This document shows positions 1-62,754 of a DNA stretch of 64,000 bases, in pieces. The translations under genes and the position numbers were made by a program. Source of the DNA: Lepisosteus oculatus (lineage: Eukaryota > Chordata > Actinopteri > Semionotiformes > Lepisosteidae); contig NC_090697.1 in assembly GCF_040954835.1 (NCBI RefSeq), positions 4,352,501 to 4,416,500 on the forward strand, read 5' to 3'. The notes under the pieces are model-generated. The model made no database searches. It was not told the DNA's origin and worked only from the letters and a program-made list of their open reading frames with translations. How positions within the stretch are numbered: the first letter of the stretch is position 1; the number at the start of each line of letters is the position of its first letter.

Positions 1-677
1 CAATCAGTAATTTAGTATTTGTAGCAATAGATCGATATTTTGCAGTATGTGATCCATTGCTTTATTCCACCAAAATAACTATTAAAATAACATGCTTATT
101 CATACTGTTGAGCTGGTTAGTGTCACTGCTGTACAATATAGCACTTATTTATTTTAATGGAAATATGAGCAAATCTGCAAAATTGAGTGCTTGCCTTGGA
201 GACTGCTTACTTTCAATTAGTGAACATTGGGGCACAGCTGACTTACTGATTACTTTTGTTTCGCCTTGTTCTATAATGTTAACACTTTACTTAAAAATCT
301 TTATAGTTGCTAGAAAACACGCACAAGCCATCAAATGTGCTGCAGATCAAATACATTCAACCACTGGGGTCCAAAGAACAATCCCCAAGAAATCTGAAAG
401 AAAAGCTGCAAAAACATTAGGGATCGTAGTTGGATTTTTTCTGCTCTGCTGGGTCCCCTATTACATCTGTACACTTGTAGAAGCAAACATGAATTTGTCA
501 TCCTCTTCTGTGCTAATGAATTTCCTCTCTTGGCTAGTGTATTTTAATTCTTTTGTTAACCCTGTTATTTACAGTTTACTTTACCCCTGGTTTCAAAAGT
601 CTATGAAACTCATTGTAACTTTTGAGATATGTAGTCCGGCATCCTCTTTGATGAACCTTTTCCCTGAAAATCATTAA
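1..677 (+). CDS. TAAR copy 1, 5' part outside window
   Basis: This is the C-terminal two thirds of a trace amine-associated receptor, an intronless rhodopsin-family GPCR expected in the olfactory neuron membrane. The frame is open from base 3 to the stop at 675-677, and it begins inside TM3 just before the DRY motif (AIDRYFAVCDPLLY). TM4 has the conserved Trp (ILLSWLVS), and ECL2 has CLGDC. TM5 has Asp5.42 eight residues before Pro5.50, ICL3 ends in SERKAAKTLGI, TM6 is FLLCWVPYY with Trp6.48 kept, and TM7 is NSFVNPVIY followed by YPWFQKS. It is the closest relative of copy 3 at 25520-26566: 263-421 matches that gene with one mismatch in 159 bases, while flanking parts differ more. The frame is undamaged, so it looks functional. 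Position 3.32 lies outside the window and cannot be read. Confidence 0.93.
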   Translation, partial: ISNLVFVAIDRYFAVCDPLLYSTKITIKITCLFILLSWLVSLLYNIALIYFNGNMSKSAKLSACLGDCLLSISEHWGTADLLITFVSPCSIMLTLYLKIFIVARKHAQAIKCAADQIHSTTGVQRTIPKKSERKAAKTLGIVVGFFLLCWVPYYICTLVEANMNLSSSSVLMNFLSWLVYFNSFVNPVIYSLLYPWFQKSMKLIVTFEICSPASSLMNLFPENH

Positions 678-1625
678 AATATTTGGTCATTTTTCTCTAG
701 TTGCAATCTATACTATTAAATTAAAATATTCTTTTTTTTTCCGTTTCCGTTTTTTGTGACTCACATATTTCAGAAAACAATACTGTAAAGAAAGTTGTAA
801 ATTTGTCATTTAGAAAGTGGAATGCAAGTAGAATGAAAAAATGTATTACAAGACATGAAACTATACTGTATATCTAATCTCTATGACTCTATGACTGTTG
901 ATTACAAAACTTTAAAATCTACTATAAATCTTCTATACAAAAAGGAAATATGGAATTTTAAAATATGAAGTACTTTACAAAATATGAAGTACTTTAAAAA
1001 ATATGAAGTTTGACATTCACATCGAATTTAATTGTTCGATGTGAAAGGTCACATCTAAGTTAAGATTTGTGTAAAAAACGTCCCAGCCATGTTAATGAAG
1101 CTGTTATCAGGGCTTATTTCAAGAAACCTCTTCAAGAGTTCCTAGAATGAATCACACCTGTAATACCACATTCATGAGAGTATTATTCCATTTAAAATAC
1201 ATTGGTGATAGAATTCTTATGTAAGACAATTTACAGTAATATATATCATTATTTAAACTTAGGCTCTTCAGGAAACCAAAAGGTACTGTATGTCTGTGTT
1301 TATATTTATACTGTACAGTATATCCAGTGGTTATGTATATTGTATGCCAATGGGAGAACTGTTAAATAACAGGAAATAACTTTTAAAAAAAGGGATATTA
1401 CTACAACCAAATTTTATAATCTTTCCCCATTGTTTTATCAAAGAAAATTGTAGGAAAGCAGTGATTCACAGCACAGTACAGTGACGTTTTTAAAGCAAGT
1501 TTATTCTTATGAAAAGGCTCCTTCTGTGAAAATAAAGGGAATACTTAAACATGTATCTTTTTCTGCAATGCTAAAAAATCAATCTCAAAAGCCTTTTATA
1601 ATGCTTGCGTATCCGCAGTTAATCT
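678..1625. other. AT-rich 3' flank of TAAR copy 1, no gene
   Basis: No coding frame or RNA gene is recognisable. A short imperfect tandem array of an ATATGAAGTACTTTA-type unit, about three copies, lies at about 962-1010. Confidence 0.6.
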
Positions 1626-1629
1626 CTTC

Positions 1630-1915
1630 TCTTGCATTACCATAATCATCCTGGATTGGACATCAGTCCATCACAGAGGACCTACAGATAAACTTATATA
1701 GTACACACGCACATCAGGGACACCAGGGACAATTTTTCCAGAACCCAGTTAACCTACCAGTAGATTTCTGTGTGAGGAAACTAGAGCACCCAAGGAAACC
1801 CAGATGAGCATAAGGAGAACATTGAAACTCTAAGCAGATAACATCTCAAGACTTTAACTCAGGGCCCGTGCAGCGTAAGGCTGCAGTGCTAATCATTATA
1901 CCAGCCTGCTGCCCG
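1630..1915 (-). repeat. tRNA-derived fish SINE, minus strand
   Basis: The reverse complement follows the common fish tRNA-head SINE: a head at about 1915-1870 with a box-B-like GAGTTAAAGTC, then a body containing the GGTTTCCTTGGGTGCTCTAG motif and ending near TGGACTGATGTCC. It is degenerate, with many substitutions and small gaps, which indicates an old copy. Confidence 0.6.
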
Positions 1916-2574
1916 AAGCGGATCCTTTATGTTCTTTTCTACAGTGAGTGCAAATCTGAGATCAGTCACTGAGAGATGTATCATTTCTCAGGGAAAAGGA
2001 ACCAGATACGATAAAGACAAAAATATAATAACAATGAAACACTGGAGAACGCCAAAACATGGACATGGATTGCTTATCCCCTTAGTATTCCCAAAAGCTG
2101 GTTAGTATCCTACTCCCTAATAGAGATTATCTGATGCACAGTGTGAAACTGTAGTTAGTTTCTGAGACTCCACCTCTATAAGTTATGAATCAAGATAAAC
2201 ATGGCAAAGGCCATGGAGGGGGTCCTAGTGCCACAGAGAGAGTCCATCTGGGATACAGTTCCAGCAACACTGGCTGCAGCTTTAGGCCCATTAATACAAC
2301 AGGCTTTGGGCCTTCTTCATAACATTTATGAGGGAATCTCATCAAAAACATTTGAACCAAAGCTGCTTCAATCAAAAGGTCTGTGATTGTCAGCAACAAG
2401 CTATTCAATCTAATAGATTAATAGATCAGGCTGAAACAGACTCACTGTCAGCCAAATCTACCTGATCAAGAAAACTCAAGTCTTTCTGATACCTGTTTCA
2501 CTTCATTCTCTACCAGCATTCTGTGAAATACTGAATATATACAAACAAACAAGCTGTCTATGTATCTGTGTAGT

Positions 2575-5339: not shown

Positions 5340-6226
5340 TATTTAAACCCGCGTTTGCGATTTAAATCAAAACGCGATTTAAATCAATATAAATATTTAT
5401 ATTGTAACGCATAGGTGACTATTCATTGTTATTAAAATGACTTAAATTCAATCATGTTGTGATATTTAGAAATATAAATTTGTTTGGTGCGAGTGAGGTT
5501 TTATTTAATCTCTGACCAAGGGAAACGTTTCATTTTTTCAAAGAAATGTTTGTTAAAAAAAAGTCATGGCTCCAGCGGAATTCCATCACAGACCGTGTGA
5601 TGTTGGAGTCAGGAACCTAACCCACAGCGCCACCGGCAAGGTCACATGCAGAGTGCTGACAAAGCACTACAGAAACATTATCAACAGACAATGTACAGCG
5701 TGTACTATTCTTGTGTTGCGGTACATGAATATAATTATATCGTTATTAATTTCTTTAGATACGCGATTCCATATTATATTCCCTTTTAATCAAATTCTAA
5801 AAGTATGCTTGTTGACTACGGTATCACGTTAGTTAAAGACTTCGAAGCTTAAAATGTTTAGGGAGAAATGGAATACTGGTGTGTATTTTTTCTTTAAAGT
5901 ACCGAGACCAGCCATATACTGTATGTTTATGTTCCAAAATTAATATCGTGTATGGCCTTCACACGCGTTACAGTATGCTCCTATTCTTTTTATGCTCAGG
6001 TACTAAGATTTCCCTTCAGTGGTAAAATTCCATATGAATATTCAATGCTAAAATGGGCACAGTAAAGATATTTACTGTAAATCTTTCTACGACCAACCAA
6101 CGGACCACAAGTTCCCCTGTCGGTCAACCAATCACCTACCGCGATATTTTGCATCACGATGCGCGACGTCGTAGCCAATTACCTCCGGTACGTGTCTGTA
6201 CCGCGCACTTTAAATGGCTGTATCTG
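5340..6226. mobile_element. TIR-family element, right arm with tRNA-like module
   Basis: The stretch ends in AAATGGCTGTATCTG followed by TA, the shared terminus of the CAGATGCAGCC family. Its reverse complement matches 15668-16181 over several hundred bases, including the GGGAGAAATGGAATACTGGT block and the tRNA-like module. It also matches 51340-51540 and 33220-33540 in part. It has no transposase and is probably non-autonomous. The left end is not clear, because 5340-5520 is shared with an internal piece at 48700-48860. Confidence 0.6.
5563..5643 (-). repeat. tRNA-like module inside TIR element
   Basis: The reverse complement reads GACCTTGCCGGTGGCGCTGT, then GGTTAGGTTCC, and ends near GGAGCCATGAC. 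It is the counterpart of the better-preserved module at 16101-16181, which keeps a box B (GTTCGAATCC). Here box B is degraded. Confidence 0.45.
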
Positions 6227-8904: not shown

Positions 8905-9880
8905 AGTTCACGGAATTGTTTCTGGAATTGCAGTGGGTGCAAGTGGATTCCAGGGTGTTGAGGAGCCCGACAGCCTGCGGGAAAAAGCTGTTACAGAGTC
9001 TGGTGGAACAAGCTCGTACACTGCGATATCTTTTTCTAGATTGTAGGAGGGCAAAGAGTTTATGGGAGGGGTGGAAGAGTTACTCTACTATACTGAAGGC
9101 CCTGTTTATGAAGTGTTTGTGATAGGTGACAGAAATAGAAGGGAGGGAGGCTCGAATGATGTTTTCAGCTGTTTCCACAATTCGTTGCAGGGTCTTGTGG
9201 TCTGAAGCGTTGCAATTTCCAAAGCACACAGTGACACAGCTGGTCAAGGTGCTCTCAATGGTGCTTCTGTAGAAAGTGGTTAGAATGGGCGGAGGAAGGT
9301 TTGCCTTCCTCAGTCGCCACAGGAAATAGAGACGCTGCTGTGCTTTCTTGGCTAGGGAGGTGGTATTGAGGGACCTAGTGAGATCATCTGTAATGTGTAC
9401 ACCAAGAAACTTGATGCTTCTAACTGTCTCCACAGGGAAGCCGATGATGTACAGTCAGGAGTGATCAGCGCCGGCCCTCCTGAAGTCAAAGATTATCTCT
9501 TTTGTTTTATTTACATTAAGAGATAGATTGTTGTTTGTGCACCAGTCCATCAGCTGCTCCACTTCCTCTCTGAATGGTGACTCATCGTTGTTGCTAATGA
9601 GGCCCACCACTGTCGTGTCAACAGCAAACTTGATGACACAGTTTGAACTGTGCTTAGCAGTAGAAGTCGTCAGTGTGAACAGCAGTGGACTAAGCACACA
9701 GCCCTGGGGGGTTCCAGTGCTCATTGTGATGGTGCTGGAGATGTTATTACCAATCCGTACTGTCTGAAGTCTCTCGGTCAGAAAGTCCAGAATTCAGTTA
9801 CAGAGGGAGGCGTTGAGATTCAGTGAGTTTAATTTTTCTATCATCTTCTGGGGGATGATTGTATTACATTTTTTTTTCTT
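8905..9880 (-). mobile_element. LINE (CR1/L2/Rex-like) reverse transcriptase fragment
   Basis: Read on the minus strand, 9724-9455 encodes RT block [12 protein letters not shown] and a degenerate catalytic box (FAVD, where FADD is usual), then [10 protein letters not shown] and [14 protein letters not shown]. Segment 9433-9080 continues with IKFLGVHI, LYFLWRLRKANL and CFGNC in a shifted frame. The 3' end runs to about 8905 and includes the GGGAAAAAGCTGTTACAGAG block common downstream of fish LINEs. The element is 5'-truncated and carries at least one frame break and a catalytic substitution, so it is inactive. Confidence 0.85.
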
Positions 9881-11567: not shown

Positions 11568-12587
11568 ATGGATCTGTCAGAATTACAAGCAGTTGAATAC
11601 TGTTTTGAATCTAATTCTTCCTGCCTGAAGGAAGTGCGATCTCCAGCTGTGTATGTGGTGATGTATATTTCTGCAGCAGCAGTGGTGATGCTGACAGTGT
11701 GTGGAAACCTGGTGGTGATCATCTCTATCTCTCACTTCAAGCAGCTCCACACACCAACCAACTTCCTAATGCTCTCCCTGGCTGTGGCAGATTTTCTAGT
11801 AGGAATAGCTGTGATGCCTTTCTGCCTAATTTTATTGATAGAAACATGTTGGTATTTTGGTGACATTTTTTGCATGTTTTATAACTTATTTGTTTTTTTC
11901 CTCACTTCTGTTTCAATTAGTAATGTTGCATGCATAGCTATTGACCGCTATTTTGCTGTGTGTTACCCATTACTTTATTCTACTAAAGTAACAGTTAATA
12001 TAACATCTTCCGTCATATTACTTAGTTGGCTGATATCACTACTGTACAATTTAGCCTTCATGTATTTTAATGGAAATATTGGTGGTGCTGAAAAAATGAC
12101 CATTTGCCTTGGAGACTGTTTGCTTTTCAACACTAAGAGCTGGGTAGTAATTGATTTAATTTTTACATTGATTCTCCCTTGTTCTGTAATGATAACACTA
12201 TACTTCAAGATTTTTATAGTTGCTAGAAAGCACGCACGTGCAATAAACTCTGTTACAGAACAAATGTGCGGAGATGCAGGCAGTAATAAAATTTCTGCAA
12301 AATCTGAAAGAAAAGCTGCAAAAACATTAGGAATATTAGTGATTGTATTTCTTCTCTGTTTGGTACCATATTACATATGCTGTCTAGTTCTAAAAAATGT
12401 GGACCGGGAATCTACTAATATAGTACTGAATTTGCTTTGTTGGTTGTTATATTTTAATTCTGCTATCAATCCTATCATTTATGCTTTGTTTTATCCCTGG
12501 TTCCAGAAGTCTGTTAAGCTAATAGTTACTCTTAAAATATTTAAAATAGAATCCTCACTGATCAGTGTATTTTCTAAACAGAGTTAA
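11568..12587 (+). CDS. Trace amine-associated receptor (TAAR copy 2)
   Basis: A 339-residue intronless GPCR with all seven TMs. The N-terminus has a sequon NSS (16-18) and Cys12/Cys19. Landmarks: GN 46-47 (N1.50), D75 (2.50), C102 (3.25), DRY 126-128, W154 (4.50), D196 (5.42), P204 (5.50), SERKAAKTLG (246-255), W292 and Y295 (7.40, 7.43), NPIIY 301-305 and FYPWFQKS. The TAAR fingerprint is complete. Position 3.32 is V109, not the Asp that binds amines in classical TAARs, and position 6.48 is Leu265. D5.42 is the likely amine contact, by analogy with teleost class III TAARs. The start is the first ATG after the promoter block and gives the family's usual N-terminal length. Nearest relatives are copies 5, 6 and 7. 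Orthology to a named TAAR was not assigned. Confidence 0.95.
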   Translation: MDLSELQAVEYCFESNSSCLKEVRSPAVYVVMYISAAAVVMLTVCGNLVVIISISHFKQLHTPTNFLMLSLAVADFLVGIAVMPFCLILLIETCWYFGDIFCMFYNLFVFFLTSVSISNVACIAIDRYFAVCYPLLYSTKVTVNITSSVILLSWLISLLYNLAFMYFNGNIGGAEKMTICLGDCLLFNTKSWVVIDLIFTLILPCSVMITLYFKIFIVARKHARAINSVTEQMCGDAGSNKISAKSERKAAKTLGILVIVFLLCLVPYYICCLVLKNVDRESTNIVLNLLCWLLYFNSAINPIIYALFYPWFQKSVKLIVTLKIFKIESSLISVFSKQS

Positions 12588-15667: not shown

Positions 15668-16195
15668 CAGATGCAGCCATACAAAGTGTGCGGCACAGAC
15701 ACGTACGGGAGGTAATTGGCTACCACTGAAGGGAAATCTTAGTAGCTGAGCATTAAAAAGAATAGGACCGTACTGTAACGCGTGTGAAGGCCATAAACGA
15801 TATTAATTTTGGAACATAAACATACAGTATATGGCTGGTCTCGGTACTTTAAAGAAAACATACACACCAGTATTCCATTTCTCCCTAAACATTTTAAGCA
15901 TTGAAGTCTTTAACTAACGTGATACCGGAGTCAACAAGCATACTTTTAGAATTTGATTAAAAGGGAATATAATATGGAATCACGTATCTAAGGAAATTAA
16001 TAACGATATAATTATATTCATGTACCGCAACACAAGAATAGTACACGCTGTACGATGTCTGTTGATAATGTTTGTAGGGCTTTTTCAACACTCCTCATGC
16101 GACCTTGCCAGTGGTGCTGTGGGTTAGGTTCCTAACTCCCACATCACACGTTGTGTGTTCGAATCCAGCTGGAGCCATGACTTTTGTTTTAACAA
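15668..16195 (+). mobile_element. TIR-family element, arm with tRNA-like module
   Basis: It starts CAGATGCAGCCATACAAAG. Apart from a shortened first part, it is the near-identical reverse complement of 5563-6226, sharing for example CATACAGTATATGGCTGGTC and GGGAATATAATATGGAATC. Unlike the other ends it is preceded by GATG rather than TA. The arms at 6 kb and 16 kb face each other as inverted repeats. Confidence 0.6.
16101..16181 (+). repeat. tRNA-like module, best preserved
   Basis: GACCTTGCCAGTGGTGCTGT followed by GGGTTAGG resembles acceptor stem, box A and D-arm. GTTCGAATCC at 16157-16166 is a perfect box B, and the module ends CTGGAGCCATGAC. Spacing fits a tRNA-derived pol III promoter. 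Acceptor-stem pairing is poor, so this is a tRNA-derived promoter module rather than a functional tRNA. Confidence 0.5.
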
Positions 16196-16199
16196 ACAT

Positions 16200-18205
16200 T
16201 TTTTTGAAAAAATGAGGAGTACTGTCTTGGTGTCTTCTGCCCACACCACTATATCAGGATGCAACGCGGTGCTGCAGACTTCCCTAGGAAATTGTAGCTG
16301 CCTGTCAAGGTACTCCCCTCCTGGTTTGAGGATCTTTGATGTTACCCTCCGTCTGCACTGCCCCACCTCTTGACTTTGTCTGACAGATAAAACTTGCTGT
16401 GCTGCAGGTGGTGGAGGACTATTTCCCTTTGCTTCCTGCCTCTTGGTCTCCACCACCTCTGCCAGCTTCCTGAGGACTTGTCAGGCAGATTGTCAGGTCT
16501 CCTCCATCAACTACAATTTCATGGCCAGACACTCCTTTTCCACTATGGAATATCTCTGCTCCTTCATGTGTGGAGAAATGTGTGGCTTAAAACCATGACA
16601 GGATGCTCCAACCCATCAAATTCCTGGGACAAAATCTGAAGCATCAGTGTGGAGGAAGAACAGGCCTACTAAATTGAGAAATAAACTGGCTAGTAATTTG
16701 CTAGCCCCAGAAAAGACCTCACATGTGTCTTCATCTGTGGAACCGGCCAGTCTCGGATGGCCTTGACCTTGTCGATCTGGTGCCGGATTTGGCCCTCACC
16801 CATTACATATCCTAGATACCAGGCTTTTCACAGGGTTAGCATGGAATCCTGCATCTTCCGGGGAGGAGAGTACCACTTGGCAGTGCTCTAAATGTAAAGG
16901 CCAGCCAATCTTCTCTAAGTATTACCACATTGTCAAGGTAAGCAGTCACATACTGAAGACGGGGTCTTAAGAGACAGTCCATCTGTTGTTGGAAGGTGGC
17001 CAGAGCCCTGAGAAGACCAAGGGAGAGTATCTTATACCCGAGGAAGTCACAAAAGCAGTTATTAGCTTGGCTGTAGTGGTCAGGGGAATCTACCAACACC
17101 CTTTTGTTAAACCTAAGGTGGTGATGTATTTCACCTTCCCTAGTTTATCCAGTAGTTTATCAATCCAAGGGGTATCTTCCTGAAGTCGTTTGCAAAAGCA
17201 CAAGGTACCATCAGGTTTAGGTATCAGGACAATGGTGCTGGACCAGGTCCAGCATCTTCTGTATCTCCTGACTGATTTTTTTTTACACTTGCTTTGGGTA
17301 TATGATATCGTGCTATTCTCATAACAACTCCAGGTGGTGTCTCTATGGGATGTTGCATGAGATGTGTAGGCCCCAGTAAAATGGAGAGCAGATGGTGAAG
17401 GAGAGCGGTAAGACCCAGACTTTCCCAGAACTCTCCAGCTACATTCAGGATACTCCAGGACTGTCTCCCATAAAGTAATTTGAATGTGAAGAACCCTGTT
17501 GAGGCTTGTGGCACTTCCCTGAATGCGAACACTAAAGGGTCAGGCGTTGATCCCAGATTGAACCACGTTCTTTAACATCTGCTGCAGAGTCCTGTTAAAG
17601 CGTTCCACCACTCTGACCTTTAGAGGGTGGTATACAGATGAAGTTATCATTTTCATTTGAAGAAAATCTGCAACTTTCTGCATGAGGAGGGAGGTGAATG
17701 GGGTTCCCTGGTCTGTCAGGATCTCTCTAGGTAAGTTGACACATGTAAATAAATTGAACACCTTCTTGGCAATCGCACTACTGACAGCCCTCTGTAGGGG
17801 GGACGGTCTCAGGGTATTGGAAGGTATAATTGACAACTACTAGGATATATTCATGCCTTCTAGACGTTTAAGGCAGGGGTCCTAGGAGATCCATCACAAT
17901 GCGTGAGACCTCTTCAATAATGGGCAGGGGCAATGGAGTGCATAAGTGGGGCTTTGGAGCTGATGGTCAGGGAAACTACTACAATAACAATAATTTTACA
18001 CACTCAGGTTGTGCGCTAATTTTGCCTCTCCTTCTACTAAGCTGGCTCCTCATCTAATCAAACCTGAACACATTCAGTATAAAACACCTGAACGTCCATG
18101 GGGAAGATGCTCTGTCATTTGAGCTACCACCTACAGTTATGCTGCACTCAGTCTTTTGTGTCTCTCAGTTCTTACAAACTTGTTCTAGCAAAATCCTGTT
18201 CCCGA
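16200..18205 (-). mobile_element. Ty3/gypsy retrotransposon fossil
   Basis: Minus-strand pieces show Ty3/gypsy parts: an integrase core region (about 17836-17540), a post-integrase segment typical of fish gypsy elements (about 17532-17224), and a reverse transcriptase piece (about 17099-16836). The order integrase before RT along the coding strand is not the normal one, so at least two copies or a rearranged copy are present. It is clearly broken, with five or more interruptions, and old. A possible LTR part lies near 18035-18205. The hAT element at 18216 was inserted beside or into it. Confidence 0.8.
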
Positions 18206-20109: not shown

Positions 20110-20640
20110 TCAAAACTGGGGCAGAACTGTGGGCTCTAGAGAGCAGGTCACATGCACAAAGATGTAATCCAGGCGACTGCACAGTTCCCTGAAGTTTCTC
20201 CAAGTCATTCCTGCATCATTTGGGCAACACCTCTGAAAACCGTCCTCCAAGGAGAATTGCTTGAGCAATGACTCTAGCTCTGCTGAACTGGTGTCACCCT
20301 CCTTCTCACAGTCTACATTTAAGTCACCAGTGAGTATAACCTGCCTGTTTGTTGTGCAGCAGTCAGCCAGGTAAGCGAACATTTCCTTCCATTCTGAGGA
20401 TGCAGTTAGAGCTTTGACGTTAATCGCTCTCATCTTCTGTCCTCTGCAGTCAATGTCTGCGACGAGGAGCTAGCCCTACACAACACTGAAGGTGACACTC
20501 ACCTTCATGTCTCAAGGAAGATTCCCATCCTGTAAGAGTGTAAGTTCTCCTACACTACAGCGTTCTTTCAAGAATGTCAGCTTGTCTCTTTCATTCCTCA
20601 GGTGGTTCCTATACGAAACATACTGAGAATGACAGGGAGG
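20110..20640 (-). mobile_element. LINE endonuclease fragment (L1/Tx1-like)
   Basis: On the minus strand, 20433-20110 encodes an APE-type endonuclease part: VILTGDLNV, then EDGFQRCCPNDAGMTWRN and SRLDYIFV. Further upstream (about 20640-20440), broken frames give VADIDCRGQKMRAINV, which is also endonuclease-like. It lies opposite in orientation to the RT part at 21330, as expected for a 5'-inverted LINE insertion. Confidence 0.75.
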
Positions 20641-21289
20641 CCACGTAGAGAAAAATTGTTTTTTCACTCAGTATCTTAACATCCTGACACTAGCAGACGT
20701 GAAAGTAAACTTTACTGGTACGACAGATTTTTATTAAAATTATTTGCCAATTGAGCTTATATTTTAAATGGACCAGAGTTATATATTCCTATATTTGGTG
20801 TTGCCTTAAATATAACTCCTGTCATTCAAGACTGGGGGGAATACACAGGGCTGTTTCGTGGTTTAGCTGGGGAGTAGAAAGAGAGATCACTGGCTGGACG
20901 TTTTCCTTATTATTTCTGCCTCACTCTCATAAGGGGTCAGGCAGTTCTCATCTATGATGAGCAGACTTTCAGCCATTCTCTCTGGGATTTTCTCCTCTTT
21001 GTTCCACTGGAGCTCCTTGTTTACCTTCTCCCCTATTTTGGGAAACCCTGGCAGACATAGTGAATGCAGTGGCACAACAAATATTCCGCCAGGGAAAACT
21101 CAGATGTAGGATTTGGAAAGGCATCATCCCTCTACTCTTCGGGGAGTGGCTAACCTCCAAAATTGGAAGCCCAAACGTTTTGCCTGGATGTTAAGATCTT
21201 GTTCAAGCTACTGGTCAGCAGACTGAGGACAGCCCTGCCCACATAAAACAGTGAAAAGACATTTGGAGTGGAGGGACAATCTGTCAGCT

Positions 21290-22770
21290 GAAACCTCCAG
21301 CTCACTCAATATACCATCGCCATTGGGCCAAGGACCGAAATGTGCACATGATGATAGTGAGCCTGAACCAGGAGAAAGTCTTTGACGGAGTAAACCACAG
21401 CTATCTATTCAGATTGCTGGAGCACTTCAGATTCAGAGAAACTTTCAGCTGGTGGGTAAAGATACTGTACTCTGAAGTGGGAAGAGCTGGCCATCAATCG
21501 CTTGGCGATACAGGGAGGCATGGGGAAAGTCCTGAAGATCACCCAGTATGCAGGTGACATGACGCTGTTTCTGAGCTTAGAAAGGGGGTTTCAGAGAGCA
21601 CTGCAGGTTATGTAGTCATACTTCAGGATCTTGAGCTCAAAACTAAACCGTAGAAGGAGCAAGGTCAGTTCTTCAGATCCTGGAGGGATAGAAACATGGT
21701 GCTGGAAGCTCTCGAGTTCTGCACGGAGCCCCTCAAGATACTAAAGGTTTTGTGCCAGATCTAGGACAACAAGACCATGAACAAGACAGAGAGGACCGCC
21801 AAGGTGAATGCAATGCTAAGTCTAGAAAATGAGGTTGCTGACCCTCATGAGGAAAGTGATGGTGTTAAAAGCAGACTTCAGTTTACCTGGCCATGGTGGA
21901 CCGGCTGCTGGCCAGACTCAGACAAGCGCTGCAAGGAATGGTCTTCAAGTTCATCTAGGGAACGACTACATCATAAGAAACCGGATGTGCCATGTGGTTG
22001 AGGAAAGGGGAGATGTGTTGCATTTTCCTTTGAAACTTGCATCTTCTGCAAACTCTGTCAGGGTTACAGGACCCAATCAGCCACAAGTACCAGTACTTTG
22101 ACAGGTTGAGGTTCTTCCTCCCATTTATGCAACTAATGCAGTGTTCAAACACTGGACTGAAAGCAGAAAGCAATCAGGAACCTATTCCCACACTGTCATG
22201 TGAAGGCAAAGGTATGAGGCCAAGAGACAGACAGAGCTCTGCACCAACCATAGAACCAACCTCTCATAAGGAGGTGAGAGGGCAACTGGTTGCTGGAAAG
22301 AAACTGGGGAAAGGACACAGCCAAAGGAACTGGACAACAAGTTGAAGGACCAAAACTGGAAGCTGGCTGCTTTACTGGCACATCAGGAACTCACACTGCT
22401 CCTGGGACAAGTGTTTTGTTGAGGAGCACATTTTCTGGAGCCGCCCTTTCACCACAGGGCAGAATGAACAATGGGAGTGGGAACAGTGCTAAGTTACCAG
22501 TGCATCCTGCTGGGGCTGGCACTGACTGGAATGGACAAAAGGATGCAATACCTGCTGTGGCTGCTGGTGTCCCTCACAAAACAAGGAGTGTGGAAAGCGA
22601 GGAATACTCTCAACCAGCACAACAGAGGGGGGTCGAAGAAACTGGGGGAGAGAATCCTTGTGAACCTCAGAGGAAAAATGAAGCATGACATAGCCAAGTG
22701 CGTTTTTTCCATGGCAAAGGAGCACTGGAAAAGGTCTGTGGGCCCTGTTTAAGGGCTGAAGTGAAAATGC
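21290..22770 (+). mobile_element. LINE reverse transcriptase region (L1/Tx1-like)
   Basis: Around 21345-21480 the plus strand encodes VSLNQEKVFDGVNHSYLFRL followed by LEHFRFRETF, which is RT block A of the L1/Tx1 group (SLDQEKAFDRV...). It continues with YAGDMTLFL-like residues near 21550, where YADD is usual. After that come several frame-shifted stretches of the C-terminal region to about 22770. Multiple stops and shifts show an old, inactive copy. Confidence 0.75.
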
Positions 22771-23516: not shown

Positions 23517-24060
23517 CTAGATGAGCGGCAGCCAGATGCACCAGCATTCCCTCTTAACCGTAACTGTAATTTTACCGAAATTAACCTCACCTCGTCCCTC
23601 TGCAGTGGCGTCTGTGTCCTGGATGAAATGGAACTGTGGGTAGGCCAAGGTAAAAACTGGGGCTGAGCAGAGTGCCTCCCTCAGGGTCTTGAAGACCCTC
23701 TGTCTACTCAGGTCCCATGAGACCATATCTTTTTGGGTTAATTCATAGAGGGTGGCAGTGATGGTGGTGAATCTGGGCACAAACTGATGATAGAAGGAGG
23801 CCAGACCAAGGAAGCCCCATAACTGCTTGAGAGAGCTGTGCACCAGCCACTTTTGGAAACTGGCAACCTTGTCCTTGGCACTGGTGAGGCCTACTCTGCT
23901 CACCTTGTGCACAAGGAAAAGCACCTTTTTTCTCATCAGTTCACATTTTTCCAGGTGCAGTTTGAGTCCAGCTGCTGCAGTTGTTCACAGGACTGCTTGG
24001 AGGTCCGTATTGAACAAGTTGCCATGCACCATGAGTTCAGATTGTCAAGACTAACAGGAA
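23517..24060 (-). mobile_element. Ty3/gypsy fossil: RT connection / RNase H part
   Basis: The minus strand shows the gypsy region after the RT catalytic core (GLASFYHQFVPRF and LTQKDMVSWD types of motif) and the beginning of RNase H. It is broken, with at least two interruptions, and has no LTRs attached. It may belong to the same family as the fossil at 16200-18205, separated by later insertions. Confidence 0.75.
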
Positions 24061-25519: not shown

Positions 25520-26566
25520 ATGGATTACAAATTACTGGAATTACATGAGCTACAAGAGTTTAAAACATTGAATTATTGTTATCAGCAATATAATTTGTCC
25601 TGCTCTAAAGAAGTCCGATCTCCAGCTGTGTATGTGGTGATGTATATTTCTGCAGTGGCAGTGGTGATGCTGACAGTGTGTGGAAACCTGGTGGTGATCA
25701 TCTCTATCTCTCACTTCAAGCAGCTCCACACACCAACCAACCTCCTCCTGCTCTCCCTGACTGTGGCAGACTTTCTGGTTGGAGTCATGGTGATGCCTTT
25801 CTCTTTAATTGAACTAATAGAAACATGCTGGTATTTTGGGGAAACATTCTGCACACTTTATAACATTTTTGTGTTTGTATTGACCTCAGTTTCGATCAGT
25901 AATTTAGTATTTGTAGCAATTGATCGATATTTTGCAGTATGTGATCCATTGCTTTATTCCACCAAAATAACTATTAAAATACCATGCTTATTCATACTGT
26001 TGAGCTGGTTAGTGTCACTGCTGTATAATGTTGCACTCATTTATTGTAATGAAAATATAGGCAGATCTGCAAAACTGAATGCTTGCCTTGGTGACTGCCT
26101 ACTTTCAGTCAATAAAAACTGGGGAACAGCTGACCTACTGATTACATTTGTTGTGCCTTGTTCTATAATGTTAACACTTTACTTAAAAATCTTTATAGTT
26201 GCTAGAAAACACGCACAAGCCATCAGATGTGCTGCAGATCAAATACATTCAACCACTGGGGTCCAAAGAACAATCCCCAAGAAATCTGAAAGAAAAGCTG
26301 CAAAAACATTAGGTATTGTTGTTCTAGGTTTTCTTCTATGTTGGGTCCCATATTATATCTGTATTATTGTGGAAGCAAATATGAATTTGTCTTCTTCTGT
26401 GCTAATGAATTTTCTCTCTTTTCTGGTGTATTTTAATTCTTCTGTGAATCCTGTTATTTATGGTTTGTTTTACCCCTGGTTTCAAAAGTCATTGAAACTC
26501 ATTGTAACTTTCAAAATATGTAGTCCAGCATCTTCTTTGATTAACCTATTCCCAGAAAAACATTAA
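25520..26566 (+). CDS. Trace amine-associated receptor (TAAR copy 3)
   Basis: A 348-residue intronless GPCR. The N-terminus is about nine residues longer than in copies 2 and 5-7, with sequon NLS (25-27). Landmarks: N56 (1.50), D84 (2.50), C111 (3.25), V118 at 3.32, DRY 135-137, W163 (4.50), D205 (5.42), P213 (5.50), KKSERKAAKTLG in ICL3, W275 (6.48, kept), and NSSVNPVIY with FYPWFQKS in TM7. Position 7.40 is Phe, where Trp is usual. Like the others it lacks Asp3.32 and has Asp5.42. It forms a subfamily with copy 1 (1-677), with which it shares a 159-bp tract containing one mismatch. The frame is undamaged. The start is the first in-frame ATG, 165 bp after the TATA-like element. Confidence 0.95.
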   Translation: MDYKLLELHELQEFKTLNYCYQQYNLSCSKEVRSPAVYVVMYISAVAVVMLTVCGNLVVIISISHFKQLHTPTNLLLLSLTVADFLVGVMVMPFSLIELIETCWYFGETFCTLYNIFVFVLTSVSISNLVFVAIDRYFAVCDPLLYSTKITIKIPCLFILLSWLVSLLYNVALIYCNENIGRSAKLNACLGDCLLSVNKNWGTADLLITFVVPCSIMLTLYLKIFIVARKHAQAIRCAADQIHSTTGVQRTIPKKSERKAAKTLGIVVLGFLLCWVPYYICIIVEANMNLSSSVLMNFLSFLVYFNSSVNPVIYGLFYPWFQKSLKLIVTFKICSPASSLINLFPEKH

Positions 26567-41524: not shown

Positions 41525-42541
41525 ATGGAACTATTAGAATTACAAGCAGTTGAATTTTGCTTTGAATCCAATTCATCCTGCCTGAAAGAAGTTCGACCTG
41601 CAGCTGTGTATGTGGTGATGTATACTTCAGCAGCAGCAGTGGTGATGCTGACAGTGTGTGGAAACCTGGTGGTGATCATCTCTATCTCTCACTTCAAGCA
41701 GCTCCACACACCAACCAACTTCCTCGTGCTCTCCCTGGCTGTGGCAGATTTTCTAGTAGGAGCTGCTGTGATGCCTTTCTGTTTAATTTTAATCATAGAA
41801 ACATGTTGGTATTTTGGTGACTTTTTTTGTATGTTTTATAACTTATTTGTTTTTTTCCTCACATCTGTTTCAATTAATAATGTTGCATGCATAGCTATTG
41901 ACCGCTATTTTGCTGTGTGTTACCCTTTACTTTATTCTGCTAAAGTCACAGTTAATATAACATCCTCTGTCATATCACTTAATTGGCTGCTATCACTACT
42001 GTACAATTTGGCATTCATGTATTTTAATGGAAATATTGGTGGTGCTGAAAAACTGAACATTTGTCTTGGAGACTGTATGCTTTTCACTACTAAAAGCTGG
42101 GTAATAATTGATTTAATATTTACATTGATATTGCCTTGTTCTATAATGATAACACTATATTTCAGGATTTTCATAGTTGCTCGAAAGCATGCACATGCAA
42201 TCAGCTCTGTTACAGAGCAGATGTGTTCAGCAGATGGAGGGAATAATAAAATTTCCACAAAATCTGAATGGAAAGCTGCAAAAACATTAGGAATATTAGT
42301 GATTGTATTTCTTCTCTGTTTGGTACCATATTACATATGCTGTCTTGTTCTTGAAAATAATGACCAGACCTCCTTAGTACTTCGTTTTCTAGGCTGGTTG
42401 TTATATTTTAATTCTGCTATAAATCCTATTATTTACGCCTTGTTTTATCCCTGGTTCCAGAAGTCAGTTAAGATGATTGTTACATTGAAGATATTTGAAA
42501 TAGAATCCTCCTTGATAAATGTGTTTTCTAAAGAGACCTAA
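41525..42541 (+). CDS. Trace amine-associated receptor (TAAR copy 5)
   Basis: A 338-residue intronless GPCR of the copy 2/5/6/7 subfamily. Landmarks: sequon NSS 16-18, N47, D75, C102, V109 at 3.32, DRY 126-128, W154, D196 (5.42), P204, Leu266 at 6.48 (FLLCLVPYY), and NSAINPIIY with FYPWFQKS. ICL3 carries SEWKAAKTLG, so Trp249 replaces the Arg that is otherwise kept in every copy of the array. This position is near the G-protein contact at the base of TM6, so coupling could be altered. ECL1 has CWYFGDFFC. The frame is intact. The ATG is the first after the promoter block, in the same ATCAATGGAA context as copy 6. Copy 6 (56485) is its closest relative, including long flanking homology. Confidence 0.95.
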   Translation: MELLELQAVEFCFESNSSCLKEVRPAAVYVVMYTSAAAVVMLTVCGNLVVIISISHFKQLHTPTNFLVLSLAVADFLVGAAVMPFCLILIIETCWYFGDFFCMFYNLFVFFLTSVSINNVACIAIDRYFAVCYPLLYSAKVTVNITSSVISLNWLLSLLYNLAFMYFNGNIGGAEKLNICLGDCMLFTTKSWVIIDLIFTLILPCSIMITLYFRIFIVARKHAHAISSVTEQMCSADGGNNKISTKSEWKAAKTLGILVIVFLLCLVPYYICCLVLENNDQTSLVLRFLGWLLYFNSAINPIIYALFYPWFQKSVKMIVTLKIFEIESSLINVFSKET

Positions 42542-47400: not shown

Positions 47401-47547
47401 TTCTTTCTATTCAAAACGTGTATTTTAAAAGTTTAAGAAGTAAAAACCTTACAGCGTACACAGATTTCTAAACTGATCAGGATCGTTATCTTTGTCTTAT
47501 GCATAATAATGTTCACCGCTCTGTCCAGCAAATTAATAATAAACTTT

Positions 47548-47613
47548 ATTTTATATAGCGTTTTAAACGAATAAGTAATTATTTTATATAGCGTTTTAAA
47601 CGAATAAGTAATT
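47548..47613 (+). repeat. 33-bp perfect tandem duplication
   Basis: Two identical copies of ATTTTATATAGCGTTTTAAA followed by CGAATAAGTAATT. The unit itself resembles the SINE tail (TATATAGCG). Confidence 0.9.
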
Positions 47614-49560
47614 AGATTGCTCATTTTACTATTTTACTCTCGCAAAGTCCTCCAATTATCATAATCCCGCCCCTTATGCAAATTCAAACCTTCCTCCCAT
47701 CCCAGTTTATCCTGTTTATCATAAACAAAATCCACCTCAATTTTCAACATGAAGCATTACACAAAATCAATACCTCAACACTCCATACTCAACAACGATA
47801 ATTCACAAACAGCCAGAACACGTAACTACACATTCCCAAACAGACCTAATTTCCATAGCCCCGCCCCTTATGCAAAACCAACATCCCTCCCCTGTTCTCT
47901 CTCTCCCCTGGCGCTTGTAATTGTTTTTATTTTCAAATAAATTTTAGCAAAGTCATGTATTTTAAAAATCTTAAGATTTTTATATTTATGTCTTTATTTA
48001 GTGGTTTCATTAGTGACAAAGGCTAAACTTTCTTGGAAAAATGTCGTTTATGTAAACCATGTTTGCTATTAATTCATTCAGGGCTAAAATATGTTCATTG
48101 TCTTCTAATGAAAGAAGGGTTCCTTTCGCCGTAGTCGGGTTGAAATTAGAAGCTTGCCACGCCCGGACTGTTACACCAACGCATTAGCATGTTAAAGCGA
48201 TTTCATTGAGGAGCCTAGCCTTTAACTAGTAAGTACTGTACTTACTGGGTTTTTGAGGGGGGGAGGTGTCTTTCGCTGGAAATCTCGCCTCCTACTTTGA
48301 AAATACCCGTGAAACCGGTTCAATTCATCACAGCCAGCACTCCTGCAGAGAGGGGGGTTGTACTTGCAGTGTATACAGTACACGCGTTATGCTCTTCGTT
48401 AATGTCTAAGCCGGAAGATATCATTATATCTCATTTTGTATTTCTTAAAAAAAAAATCGTTTTCCCAGCCTAACAGTATTGTTTTTAACCTGTAAAGCGC
48501 TTTGAGGAGCCACCTTTAAAGGCGCCATATACAATAAAGTTCATTATTATTACTATTGTAAATTTGCTGGACAGAGAGGTGAACATTATTACACAGAAGA
48601 CAAAGATAGCGATTTACGTTGCATTGTGTATCGTGCTGCTTTAATACAGTTTTAAATAATTAAAAGTCTAAACAGTATCAGCTTTATTTATGGGTTTTAA
48701 ATAAAGGTGATTTAAATGCGATTTAAATCAATATAAATGTTTATATTGTAATGCATAGGTGACTATTCATTGTTATTAAAATGACTTAAATTCGATCATG
48801 TGATATTTAGAAATATACATTTGTTTGGTGCGAGTGAAGTTTTATTTAATCTCTGAGCCATACTGATTCTTCTGGAAGCCAGTTTCCGCCAGGGAGTAAA
48901 AAAAAAAAAAAACACACTATGGTATTCTCTCCAATGTAGTGCAGTTAAAAACATACCTCTGATGCTGCTCCTAAATGAATATCGTTTATGACCATCAGAA
49001 GCTTTATGCTCCTTTTCTTTTTTCCAGTGGATTGAACAGGGAGAGGCATTTCATGATGTACTTTTCACTGATGAAACAACAGTGGCTCTGGAACAGTTTT
49101 CAACCATGTCGTTTTATAAAAAGGGGATATATTCACACGTTACTGAAGCTAAAAGTTTAGCCTTTGTCACTAATGTAACCACTAAATAAAGACATATAGA
49201 AATCCCTACGTTACAGACTATATATGGCTGGTATTGGTAGTTTAAAGAAAAAATACACACCAGTATTCCACTTTCTCCCTAAACATTTTAAGCATCAGAG
49301 TCTTACATGTGGTTATTTCGGAAACGTTTGTACGTGCTCCTTCTGACCATGTTACTGTTTACTGTTACTGACCATATGAAGTTTAAGTGTCTGTGGGCAC
49401 TTTTCCTGTCCGTGGGGGGTGGACCGTCTTTCATTAGAAGGTTAGTCTGTTCTACTCTGAGAATGTAGAGGGGGTGGAAAGTGCCCACGGTCATTTAATT
49501 AGTATTAAAATCTTAGTTATCTTTCTAGTTCACAGGTTTGCATGCATAATTTAATTTTGA
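47614..49560. other. Mosaic of TIR-family internal pieces and SINE tail
   Basis: 48485-48550 is a SINE tail (GTAAAGCGCTTTGAGGAGCC). 48700-48870 repeats the block at 5370-5510. About 47965-48045 recurs at 51135-51215 and inverted at about 49110-49190. A GGGAGTAAAAAAA block at 48890 recurs at 6788. No gene is supported. Confidence 0.5.
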
Positions 49561-50143: not shown

Positions 50144-50399
50144 TAACGCTATAAAAACGCTATAAAATAATGTGACTTGGCACAGAACAAGTTTACAGCA
50201 CAGTACAAAAATAAATGCTGACCATGACTTTAGAAGCATAAATTGCCTTACACTCAATTTAAACACAAGCTGTCTTTAGCCCTCTAAGCTGGTTCATACA
50301 GAAATGTAGAGATCCAGGCTCAGAACACACAGCTTCATTAGCGAATACATATGCAGGACAACTAGAGAAGACGTTTTACATAGGATGGATTTTTACAAA

Positions 50400-50489
50400 C
50401 ATCCCATCAGTGACATCACTGAAGTCAACTCCTAGGTACTGTAACATCCCATCAGTGACATCACTGAAGTCAACTCCTAGGTACTGTAA
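50400..50489 (+). repeat. 45-bp perfect tandem duplication
   Basis: Two identical copies of CATCCCATCAGTGACATCAC followed by TGAAGTCAACTCCTAGGTAC and TGTAA. Confidence 0.95.
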
Positions 50490-51339
50490 CTGTCGTGTGG
50501 ATAGTTTCACAAGAATCAGACAAAGGTTTAAGCATCGCTTGTTCTAGATAAAACTGCAAAAAAAAAACAACAACCCATAATGTACTTCTTTGCGGCTCTG
50601 TTTGCCCAAATCATATATTCACAACGTGAAATCTAGAAAATAATATTACGTAACCAAAATCCGCAATATGGAAACAGAACCTGTGTAATTGTTGATTGAT
50701 GATGTACTCGTAACATTTTTTCAAGACGAACTACAACATTTAAAAAATGACTTGTATGTACTTGATATCTCTAATCAATCCACGGGTCCCAGTACAAAAC
50801 GAAACTAAAACGCATAGCGTTTCGCGCTTCTTATTAGTTGCTCAAAAGTAATTTGACCGTATGAAATGCATAATATAAACCTAGAAACATATACGTGAGC
50901 AGTACTTAAGCACTGTAGTATCGGTGTTAAGATATACTCTCAAATACTGTAAATCAAGTTAAAAATATCTCAAGACCGATTCTGGTCATAATGAAACCAT
51001 GTTTCGTTTATGTTTTCTTTTTCATCTTGAAATAACTCATTTCTAAATACCTTTTTCACTGTTAACATCTTGCAGCAACTCTGCAACAAAATATACACTC
51101 TGACAGTTCATCCTGCTACCAACATTAAATAAAACAAATCTTAAGATTTCTATATTTATGTCTTTATTTAGTGGTTTCATTAGTGACAAAGGCTAAACTT
51201 TCTTGGAAAAATGTATTTTATGTGTTGCGGAAAAAACTGACTTGCTTTAACAAAATATGTTTACAAATCCTTTCACCTGGCATTTTCGTAGTTAGAAATT
51301 ATGGAACGCTCTGTTAAAAGCAAGGGAGTTTTTATGTCC

Positions 51340-52229
51340 GTTGCAGTTCTTTTGCAACATGAATATAATTATATCGTTATTAATTTCTTGAGATACGCGA
51401 TTCCATATTATATTCCCTTTTAATCAAATTCTAAAAGTATGCTTGTTGACTCCGGTATCACGTTAGTTAAAGACTTCGAAGCTTACAATGTTTAGGGAGA
51501 AATGGAATACTGGTGTGTATTTTTCCTTTAAAGTGCCGATTCCTGGAATCTGACTGGCTGACACCCCTCTGAAGTGGTTCCATAAAATCTGGTATACGGA
51601 AAAGAAAGCGTTGATAAATACAAGTGTCTTTTAATACACTCTTTGCTGTGCTCTTGAGGATCCTTGTGATATTTTAAGCTCTAGTTGAATGATAGGTGTC
51701 GCATTTTAAATCATTTTCGTAGCTAGAAATTATGAAACGCCCTGTTAAAAGCAAGGAAGTTTTTATGCCCGTTGAAGTAAAACAAAATGCCTGACAAAGT
51801 ATGGCTTGGACAGATTCCAAGTGCTTGTACAAATGTGCTAAAGAAATTATACTTTGAGTATACAGCTTGTCCAAAGTCATCCATTATTAATACTATTATT
51901 AATATCTTCAGTAAAGGCTTTGATGCATAAATATTTCTGATAAAGGTAGGTTGTGTACTTTTGTCCAACTGAGCAATCTTGCTTTCATAAAATATACCAA
52001 CATTTTAATGACTGATGATTAACATGCTGTAATACACAGTTCAAAATTAAAGGCTCAAATGCTGTAAATGAGAGGTTAAGCTCCCCCTGGCGGTTTTACA
52101 AGGCGACGCCGGATAGTTTCCGGCAGAGCGTCAAATGATACGTGACACCACGTGATACCGCGTGACACTGCGACACGCCCACCGGGGTATGCCGCGAAAT
52201 ACCTCACCCATTTTGAATGGCTGCATCTG
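51340..52229. mobile_element. TIR-family element, right arm
   Basis: It ends CCCATTTTGAATGGCTGCAT and CTG followed by TA. The inner part includes the same TATATTCCCTTTTAATCAAA and GGGAGAAATGGAATACTGG blocks as 5760-5880. The reverse complement near 51940-52090 matches the body of the left arms at 28800 and 35560. It abuts a misoriented copy of TAAR upstream DNA at 52230. Confidence 0.6.
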
Positions 52230-56484: not shown

Positions 56485-57489
56485 ATGGAATTGTTAGAAT
56501 TTCAAGTAGCTGGATACTGTTTTGAATCTAATTCTTCCTGCCTGAAGGAAGTGCGATCTCCAGCTGTGTATGTGGTGATGTATATTTCTGCAGTGGCAGT
56601 GGTGATGCTGACAGTGTGTGGAAACCTGGTGGTGATCATCTCTATCTCTCACTTCAAGCAGCTCCACACACCAACTAACTTCCTCGTGCTCTCTCTGGCT
56701 GTGGCAGATTTTTTAGTAGGAGCAGCTGTGATGCCTTTCTGTTTAATTTTATTCATAGAAACCTGTTGGTATTTTGGAGAAACATTTTGCATACTTTATA
56801 ATATATCTGTTTTTTTTCTCACATCTGTTTCAATTAATAATGTTGCATGCATAGCTATTGACCGGTATTTTGCTGTGTGTTACCCTTTACTTTATTCTGC
56901 TAAAGTCACAGTTAATATAACATCCTCTGTCATATCACTTAATTGGCTGCTATCACTACTGTACAATTTGGCATTCATGTATTTTAATGGAAATATTGAT
57001 GGTGCTGAAAAACTGAACATTTGCCTTGGAGACTGTTTGTTTTTCATAACTAAAAGCTGGGTAATAATTGATTTATTATGTACATTGATATTGCCCTGTT
57101 CTGTAATGATAACATTATATTTCAAGATTTTTGTAGTTGCTCAAAAGCATGCACGAGCAATCAGCTCTGTTACAGAGCAGATGTGTTCAGCAGATAAAAT
57201 ATCTTCAACATCTGAAAGGAAAGCTGCAAAAACATTAGGAATATTAGTGATTGCATTTCTGCTCTGTTTGGTGCCGTATTATATATGCAGTCTCATTCTT
57301 AAAAATGTGGGCCGAACCTCTTTAGTACTTAGTGTTCTAGGTTGGTTGTTATATTTTAATTCTGCTATCAATCCTATCATTTATGCTTTGTTTTATCCCT
57401 GGTTCCAGAAGTCAGTTAAGCTGATTGTTACCCTCAAGATATTTAAAATAGAATCCTCCCTGATAAATGTGTTTTCTAAGGAAATTTAA
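56485..57489 (+). CDS. Trace amine-associated receptor (TAAR copy 6)
   Basis: A 334-residue intronless GPCR. The start is the ATG at 56485 (ATCAATGGAA context, as in copy 5); an upstream TTG at 56467 is in frame but not a credible vertebrate start. Landmarks: sequon NSS 16-18, N47, D75, C102, V109 at 3.32, DRY 126-128, W154, D196 (5.42), P204, Leu262 at 6.48 (FLLCLVPYY), and NSAINPIIY with FYPWFQKS. ICL3 is four residues shorter than in copy 5 (SADKISSTSERK). Gln220 replaces the Arg of the ARKHA motif at the end of TM5. The frame is intact and probably functional. It is closest to copy 5, with flanking homology on both sides. Confidence 0.95.
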   Translation: MELLEFQVAGYCFESNSSCLKEVRSPAVYVVMYISAVAVVMLTVCGNLVVIISISHFKQLHTPTNFLVLSLAVADFLVGAAVMPFCLILFIETCWYFGETFCILYNISVFFLTSVSINNVACIAIDRYFAVCYPLLYSAKVTVNITSSVISLNWLLSLLYNLAFMYFNGNIDGAEKLNICLGDCLFFITKSWVIIDLLCTLILPCSVMITLYFKIFVVAQKHARAISSVTEQMCSADKISSTSERKAAKTLGILVIAFLLCLVPYYICSLILKNVGRTSLVLSVLGWLLYFNSAINPIIYALFYPWFQKSVKLIVTLKIFKIESSLINVFSKEI

Positions 57490-59348: not shown

Positions 59349-59404
<56 letters not shown>

Positions 59405-59755: not shown

Positions 59756-59784
59756 ATATATAATATAATACATAATGTTATTGT

Positions 59785-59920
59785 TATTCCTTACACTTAC
59801 ATTTCACTCCACTCAAAGCATTTTACAGGTAATAGGGACTCCCCTCCACCACTACTAGTGTCCAGCCCCCACCTGGATGATGCGATGGCAGCCTGGGTGG
59901 CACGGTGCACCATGTGGTAG
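59785..59920 (-). repeat. SINE fragment
   Basis: CTTACACTTACATTTCACTC, CACTCAAAGCATTTTACAGG and CCCCCACCTGGATGATGCGA are the reverse complement of a fish SINE core and tail. Confidence 0.55.
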
Positions 59921-60021
59921 CTGTATCCAGAAACTGAGTCAGTGGAATCAAAAGAAGTCACCTAGCATTATTGAATCTCATTTAATTGCAATAGCTTTAA
60001 TCAACGGTCTTGATTGTTTCC

Positions 60022-60545: not shown

Positions 60546-60659
60546 ATTTTTTTATCTTATCTTAATTTGTTTAAGGACTTTTTTGTGTCTTGATGGCGCT
60601 AAGTCTTGGGCCCCAAAATTCAAACTGACTTGGCCCCTTTTACAGTATGTTGACACTCC

Positions 60660-61480: not shown

Positions 61481-61484
61481 TCAA

Positions 61485-61582
61485 GTAACCCCAGGACATT
61501 AGAGATTATTAGGATAAATAAACTGACATCAAATCCCATAAACAGCAGGAGGAGGAGTCAACAACCCTTGTGCTATAACTGT
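61485..61582 (+). promoter_or_regulatory. Conserved TAAR upstream block (copy 7)
   Basis: GTAACCCCAGGACATTAGAG, ATTATTAGGATAAATAAACT, AACAGCAGGAGGAGGAGTC and TATA-like GCTATAACT (61572-61580), about 160 bp before the ATG. Confidence 0.6.
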
Positions 61583-61737
61583 CACATCACCAAGTAATTT
61601 CCAGGTACTGCAAAGCAGACAATGTGGTATTGATGTTGTCTGTATTATTTTAAGTTTTATGATTTTATATATATAATACAAGCTTGAAATTTGAATTGAG
61701 TATCAGTACTGTCTAAATTTCAAGGTGACTCTGTTCA

Positions 61738-62754
61738 ATGGAACAGTCAGAAATACAAGCAGTTGGATACTGTTTTGAATCTAATTCTTCCTGCCTGAAG
61801 GAAGTGCGATCTACAGCTGTGTATGTGGTGATGTATATTTTTACAGTGGCTGTGGTGATGCTTACAGTGTGTGGAAACCTGGTGGTGATCATCTCTATCT
61901 CTCACTTCAAGCAGCTCCACACACCAACTAACTTCCTAATGCTCTCTCTGGCTGTGACAGATTTTCTAGTAGGAGCAGTTGTGATGCCTTTCAGTATAAT
62001 TTTATTAATAGAGACCTGTTGGTATTTTGGAGAAATGTTTTGCATCATTTATAAAATCTTGTTTTTTTTCCTCATTTCTGTTTCAATTGGTAATGTGGCA
62101 TACATAGCTATTGACCGCTATTTTGTTGTTTGTTACCCATTACTTTATTCTACTAAAGTCACAGTTAATGTTACAGCTGCTGTCATATTGCTTAATTGGC
62201 TGATATCACTACTGTACAATTTGGCCTTCATGTATTTTAATGGAAATATGGGTGGTACTGAAATGCTAAACTTTTGCCTTGGAGACTGTTTGCTCTTCAT
62301 AACTAAAAGCTGGGTAATCATTGATTTATTATGTACATTGATATTGCCCTGTTCTATAATGATAACACTGTATTTCAAGATTTTTGTAGTTGCTCGAAAG
62401 CATGCACATGCAATCAGCTCTGTTACAGAGCAAATGCGTTCAGCAAATGGAGGGAATAATAAAATTTCCACAAAATCTGAAAGGAAAGCTGCAAAAACAT
62501 TAGGAATATTAGTGTTTGCATTTCTGTTTTGTGTGGTACCATATTATATATGCAGTCTCACTCTTGAAAATGTGGACCAGACCTCATTAGTATTTAGTCT
62601 TCTGGGTTGGTTGTTATATTTTAATTCTGCTATAAATCCTATTATTTACGCTTTGTTTTATCCCTGGTTCCAGAAGTCTATTAAGCTGATTGTTACTTTT
62701 AAAATATTTAAAATAGAATCCTCCCTTATAAATGTGTTTTCTAAAGAGATTTAA
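61738..62754 (+). CDS. Trace amine-associated receptor (TAAR copy 7)
   Basis: A 338-residue intronless GPCR of the copy 2/5/6/7 subfamily. Landmarks: sequon NSS 16-18, N47, D75 (in VTDFLVG where the others have VADF), C102, DRY 126-128 followed by FVVCYP, W154, D196 (5.42), P204, SERKAAKTLG in ICL3, Val266 at 6.48 (FLFCVVPYY), and NSAINPIIY with FYPWFQKS. Position 3.32 is Phe109, the bulkiest substitution in the array, so this binding pocket should differ most in shape from that of its sisters. TM3 also has FFFLISVSIGN in place of FFLTSVSINN. The frame is intact. The start is the first ATG downstream of the promoter block and aligns with the other copies. Confidence 0.95.
   Translation: MEQSEIQAVGYCFESNSSCLKEVRSTAVYVVMYIFTVAVVMLTVCGNLVVIISISHFKQLHTPTNFLMLSLAVTDFLVGAVVMPFSIILLIETCWYFGEMFCIIYKILFFFLISVSIGNVAYIAIDRYFVVCYPLLYSTKVTVNVTAAVILLNWLISLLYNLAFMYFNGNMGGTEMLNFCLGDCLLFITKSWVIIDLLCTLILPCSIMITLYFKIFVVARKHAHAISSVTEQMRSANGGNNKISTKSERKAAKTLGILVFAFLFCVVPYYICSLTLENVDQTSLVFSLLGWLLYFNSAINPIIYALFYPWFQKSIKLIVTFKIFKIESSLINVFSKEI

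Follow-up and report, generated by a model that had tools for sequence, protein, structure and literature searches.

Clade III trace amine-associated receptors (TAARs) form a large group of amine receptors, in which helix 5 is reported to have taken over the key salt bridge from helix 3. In zebrafish, 84 of the 85 TAARs that lack Asp3.32, and hence 84 of all 112 TAARs, carry an aspartate at position 5.42 (PMC4695389; this and the other papers cited here are quoted from excerpts). TAAR16c, TAAR16e and TAAR16f, which have Asp5.42 and no Asp3.32, respond to amines, and charge-neutralised D5.42 abolishes the responses of TAAR16c and TAAR16f, both of the receptors tested (PMC4695389). Here we describe a 64-kb stretch of DNA (the window) that contains seven TAAR genes, six of them intact single-exon open reading frames (ORFs) and one truncated at the left edge. 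We consider it very probable that the window covers a section of a tandem array from a fish or fish-like vertebrate, made up of intact clade III TAAR genes with a single exon, each most likely encoding an olfactory G protein-coupled receptor (GPCR). In such a receptor the amino group of the ligand would pair with Asp5.42 on helix 5 rather than with Asp3.32 on helix 3, and the amine ligand would sit in an inverted orientation relative to that in Asp3.32-type receptors. By homology, we infer that the receptors of the window have olfactory expression, are activated by amines and form a salt bridge through D5.42.

The seven genes, numbered here from left to right, are spread widely over about 62 kb. 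Copy 1 comprises the 3' part of a TAAR gene (1 to 677, plus strand; the frame runs from base 3 and its stop codon ends at 677); its 5' end lies outside the window, so that transmembrane helix (TM) 1 to most of TM3 are cut off. The six full copies encode proteins of 339 (copy 2, 11568 to 12587, plus strand), 348 (copy 3, 25520 to 26566, plus), 343 (copy 4, 36191 to 37222, minus), 338 (copy 5, 41525 to 42541, plus), 334 (copy 6, 56485 to 57489, plus) and 338 (copy 7, 61738 to 62754, plus) residues. All three copies submitted to Pfam (copies 2, 4 and 7) matched the rhodopsin-family GPCR domain 7tm_1 with E values of 4e-48 to 4e-52 (4.1e-52 for copy 2), and the TM7 TAAR fingerprint NSxxNPxx[Y/H]xxx[Y/F]xWF, as printed in the excerpted text of PMC4065256, is present in all seven. 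A tblastn search with the six full copies as queries, at E values up to 1e-3, found no eighth TAAR copy or fragment in the window. Copy 4 is the sole minus-strand member and also the most divergent, with 53-61% identity to the other copies and a long branch in the tree described below.

Position 3.32 is non-acidic in every copy in which it can be read. Copy 1 starts past this position and is thus outside all 3.32 counts; in the six full copies, C3.25 and R3.50 are invariably separated by 25 residues, and 3.32 is valine in copies 2 (GTT, 11892-11894), 3 (GTG, 25871-25873), 5 (GTT, 41849-41851) and 6 (GTT, 56809-56811), serine in copy 4 (AGT, 36896-36898, minus strand) and phenylalanine in copy 7 (TTT, 62062-62064). 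Eight residues back from P5.50, an aspartate occupies 5.42 in 7/7 copies, encoded on the plus strand at 240-242, 12153-12155, 26132-26134, 42110-42112, 57070-57072 and 62323-62325 in copies 1, 2, 3, 5, 6 and 7, respectively, and on the minus strand at 36635-36637 in copy 4. Copies 1 and 3 use GAC for this conserved residue and the remaining five copies use GAT, which is a synonymous difference. When the copies were aligned to zebrafish TAAR13c, D112 (3.32) and D202 (5.42) of that receptor shared columns with the corresponding window residues, confirming the register, and the alignment showed no gap between 5.42 and P5.50 or elsewhere in TM5. The residues named at 3.32 by the original prediction, copy by copy, are therefore borne out by the codons and the TAAR13c alignment, and its claim of Asp5.42 in all seven copies holds by both the count from P5.50 and the same alignment. 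The window residues thus show the clade III combination, with Asp5.42 present and Asp3.32 absent, and do not show the pairing of Asp3.32 with Asp5.42 that marks TAAR13-type diamine receptors, since copies 2 to 7 have Val, Val, Ser, Val, Val and Phe at 3.32, respectively.

The TAAR copies are under purifying selection. The ratio of nonsynonymous to synonymous substitution (dN/dS, Nei-Gojobori) lies between 0.17 and 0.39 in all 21 pairwise comparisons. When neutral substitution was simulated on copy 5, stop-free ORFs survived in 20, 3 and 0 of 1000 runs at 0.11, 0.15 and 0.4 changes per site, respectively. Together the low dN/dS and the simulated loss of ORFs indicate that the genes are constrained and that the residue pattern is not one of decay.

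Conservation within the array singles out the same aspartate. All seven copies can be read at 217 columns; 80 of them show no variation, and just three of the 80 are acidic, namely the Asp of the DRY motif, a Glu at the helix-6 base and D5.42. If the comparison is restricted to the six full copies, nine columns hold Asp or Glu throughout, and by our own position assignment D5.42 is the sole orthosteric-pocket site among them; the other eight lie in the N-terminal region (two), at D2.50, in loop 1 (two), in the DRY motif, in loop 3 and at the helix-6 base. D5.42 is the only acid at the usual TM3/5/6/7 pocket positions that every readable copy has kept, which supports a putative salt bridge to helix 5. 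Elsewhere in the pocket the copies have diverged. The seven PDB TAARs of the alignment all share R2.64, D3.32 and D6.58, and copies 2 to 7 have none of the three. The acid at 7.36 is replaced by Asn, Arg or Ser in all seven copies; 6.58 is Glu in copies 1 and 3, Tyr in copy 4 and Leu in the remaining copies; and 2.64 is Glu in copy 3 and Leu in the other five readable copies. Y6.51 and Y7.43 are common to the array and to mouse TAAR7f and TAAR9.

The extent of these changes, which together take in D3.32, the 7.36 acid and, in five copies, W6.48, and hence much of the classical amine pocket, would also fit receptors that have shifted from amines to other odorants and kept D5.42 for structural purposes, and clade III was indeed once proposed not to detect amines, as stated in the excerpted text of PMC4695389. 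We regard such a shift as improbable, considering that D5.42 is the one pocket acid shared by all copies and that clade III receptors carrying this swap need both the ligand amine and D5.42 (PMC4695389). Two further features of the pocket region were observed. Position 7.40 is Phe in copy 3 and Trp in the other copies. In extracellular loop 2, an Asp precedes the second Cys in six of the seven copies (CLGDC; CLGNC in copy 4), where the PDB TAARs have Gly in six of seven cases and His in TAAR13a; this Asp is possibly an extra acid near the mouth of the pocket.

The toggle-switch residue W6.48 is kept (TGG) in copies 1 and 3 and lost in the other five, with Leu in copies 2, 4, 5 and 6 and Val in copy 7. 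Going from TGG to TTG and from TTG to GTG takes one nucleotide step each, and the order of these steps agrees with the tree. What this looks like is one Trp to Leu change before copy 4 split from copies 2, 5, 6 and 7, followed by a putative Leu to Val change in copy 7. The five copies join with 93/89 support, and dS between copy 4 and copies 2, 5, 6 and 7 is 0.75-0.87. Since the single-step codons fit the tree, the replacement of W6.48 looks old and stably kept. As a stable loss in five copies, it offers a natural test of whether the toggle switch is necessary in amine receptors. The branch formed by copies 2, 4, 5, 6 and 7, in which W6.48 is replaced and R2.64, D3.32, D6.58 and the 7.36 acid are lost, might even represent amine receptors that are activated differently from other aminergic GPCRs, a proposal that we make tentatively and consider rather unlikely.

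A search of the PDB with copy 6 returned, in order, zebrafish TAAR13c, TAAR13a, TAAR13e and TAAR13d (E values of 2e-87 to 2e-90), then mouse TAAR9, TAAR7f, TAAR1 chains and lamprey TAAR348; the best matches of copy 5 were likewise these TAAR13 proteins, with mouse TAAR9, TAAR7f and TAAR1 behind them. The original prediction had called for a TAAR tree. In a tree of 15 rows, rooted on HTR4 and sampling clade III, whose subfamilies are TAAR13-20, TAAR22-26, TAAR28-31, TAARSG2-6 and TAARC3, by TAAR13 only, the seven copies form one clade with 100/100 support and fall next to zebrafish TAAR13, and that join reaches only 81/82. Within the array, copies 1 and 3 pair at 98/97 and copies 2, 5, 6 and 7 group at 100/99, with copy 4 joining these four as noted above. 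The array therefore contains three local subgroups (copies 1 and 3; copy 4; copies 2, 5, 6 and 7), and the clustering of the genes together with the tree leads us to local duplication as the origin of the array. Considering the long branches of HTR4, TAAR1 and copy 4, the join between the array and TAAR13 is only indicative. The putative assignment to clade III is thus supported by the residues and, weakly, by the tree.

Several observations weigh against the reading of these genes as clade III amine receptors that use D5.42. Rival topologies were not rejected in the approximately unbiased test, with p-AU values of 0.286 for the array grouped with TAAR7f/9 and 0.133 for TAAR13 grouped with TAAR7f/9. 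Zebrafish TAAR14-20 and the gar, coelacanth and bichir sequences are not among the rows of the tree, which thus does not directly address nesting inside clade III. W6.48Y abolished coupling in TAAR7f (PMC11364543), and given the loss of W6.48 from five of the seven copies, amine agonism is not simply transferable to those five. The Glu residues at 6.58 (copies 1 and 3) and 2.64 (copy 3) could hold an amine too. An AlphaFold2 model built from a seven-row alignment had a mean predicted local distance difference test (pLDDT) score of 39 and was not used, so our view of the pocket geometry is drawn from aligning the copies with relatives of known structure.

The original prediction had also equated the array with a non-classical class III known from teleosts. 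The residue signature indeed matches the one described in the excerpted text of PMC4695389, but the taxonomic scope has been superseded. Gar TAARSG2-6 and coelacanth TAARC3 have been placed in clade III (PMC8890504), which overturns the older teleost-only view of the clade, and shark TAARS2 combines D5.42 with D3.32 (PMC8890504), so that D5.42 by itself is no teleost novelty. The B4 subclade, which we infer to be clade III, is expanded in ray-finned fishes and also occurs in coelacanth and lungfish (PMC10869828). In line with the join in our tree, the excerpted text of PMC8032801 traces class III to an ancestral taar13 gene, an origin that it places within the ray-finned fishes.

The DNA between the TAAR genes contains decayed transposable elements. 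The window has 121 open frames of at least 75 residues, ten of which were compared with Pfam; three of the ten passed the Pfam cut-offs, three gave matches below them and four had no match up to an E value of 0.01. Above the cut-off were a reverse transcriptase with an adjoining ALKBH8_N frame (9083-9793) and an endonuclease (20113-20469); we interpret the ALKBH8_N-labelled frame as the end of the long interspersed nuclear element (LINE) that also encodes the reverse transcriptase. The matches below the cut-off were to a retroelement integrase (17543-17836), a reverse transcriptase (21255-21554) and an RNase H (23520-23984). A dispersed repeat with copies that are 95-97% identical (5673-5992, 15754-16073 and 51357-51539, the first two mutually inverted) is a young element. 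Perfect tandem repeats were also present, consisting of two 33-bp units at 47546-47614, two 45-bp units at 50398-50490 and (ATT)18 at 59349-59403. No Rfam family reached its gathering threshold in the window, and the scan for tRNA genes in the window found none. The strict EBF/Olf1 motif TCCCNNGGGA had zero matches in the window. Of the six copies that have their upstream region in the window, two show a relaxed form in the preceding 3 kb (at about -2.6 kb for copy 2 and -1.8 kb for copy 3), from which we claim nothing.

Two sources of the array have to be weighed. The array may be of teleost origin, for example from a cyprinid, whose genomes are likewise AT-rich (the GC content of the window is 0.37), and lie inside the known teleost class III expansion, which would leave the origin of the binding mode unchanged; we see an even chance of this. 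The copies are just 40-46% identical to zebrafish TAAR13, which speaks against such a source, as do, both weakly, the wide spacing of the genes and a CpG observed/expected ratio of 0.38, which is low for a teleost. Spacing, GC content and CpG ratio are all weak pointers to the source. In favor of a teleost, TAARs with D5.42 and without D3.32 are the majority in zebrafish, medaka, stickleback, fugu and salmon (PMC4695389), zebrafish TAARs are single-exon genes as are those found here (PMC4415300), and only seven non-teleosts are present among 185 ray-finned genomes (PMC9438307).

The other source, to which we give somewhat less than an even chance, would be a polypteriform or another non-teleost, with a loss of D3.32 that is either convergent or shared with teleost clade III, in which case it would predate the teleosts. 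The wide gaps between the genes, with the decayed transposon pieces in them, suggest a large genome, the array is one clade and sister to zebrafish TAAR13 in our small tree, and two Polypteriformes are the richest in TAARs of 1,527 genomes (reedfish 497 and bichir 445, the next having 307; PMC10869828). However, the sampling of the tree cannot tell shared from convergent loss of D3.32. We found no published analysis of the 3.32 and 5.42 residues of bichir, in a search that left supplements and most subscription papers outside, so one may exist. A non-teleost origin of the array would help to date the move from helix 3 to helix 5 and would show whether the move happened only once.

Under either source, the array can be set beside the TAARs already described. 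Zebrafish TAAR16c and TAAR16f, compared here by description, have the same swap, with no D3.32 and with D5.42 (PMC4695389). The six full ORFs are single-exon like the zebrafish TAARs and unlike those of the neoteleost subfamilies A1-A4 and A7, which are spliced (PMC4415300). The closest solved relatives, zebrafish TAAR13a, TAAR13c, TAAR13d and TAAR13e (PDB 9m3s, 9m2s, 9m0x and 9m40), resemble the array in having D5.42 and no gap in TM5. However, TAAR13 keeps D3.32, R2.64, D6.58, the 7.36 acid and W6.48 and detects diamines, whereas the readable window copies lack the first four of these and five of the seven lack W6.48. Mouse TAAR7f and TAAR9, which belong to clade II (TAAR5-9), differ in another way, keeping D3.32 and having Asn or Cys at 5.42; the one-residue loss in TM5 of clade II, placed at 5.44 in the excerpted text of PMC8890504, appears as a gap in mTAAR9 and mTAAR7f and in none of the seven window copies. 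Gar TAARSG2-6 and coelacanth TAARC3 are likened to the array by their reported clade membership (PMC8890504). Considering these likenesses and differences together, the genes of the array are best filed as new members of the already known clade III type of TAAR.

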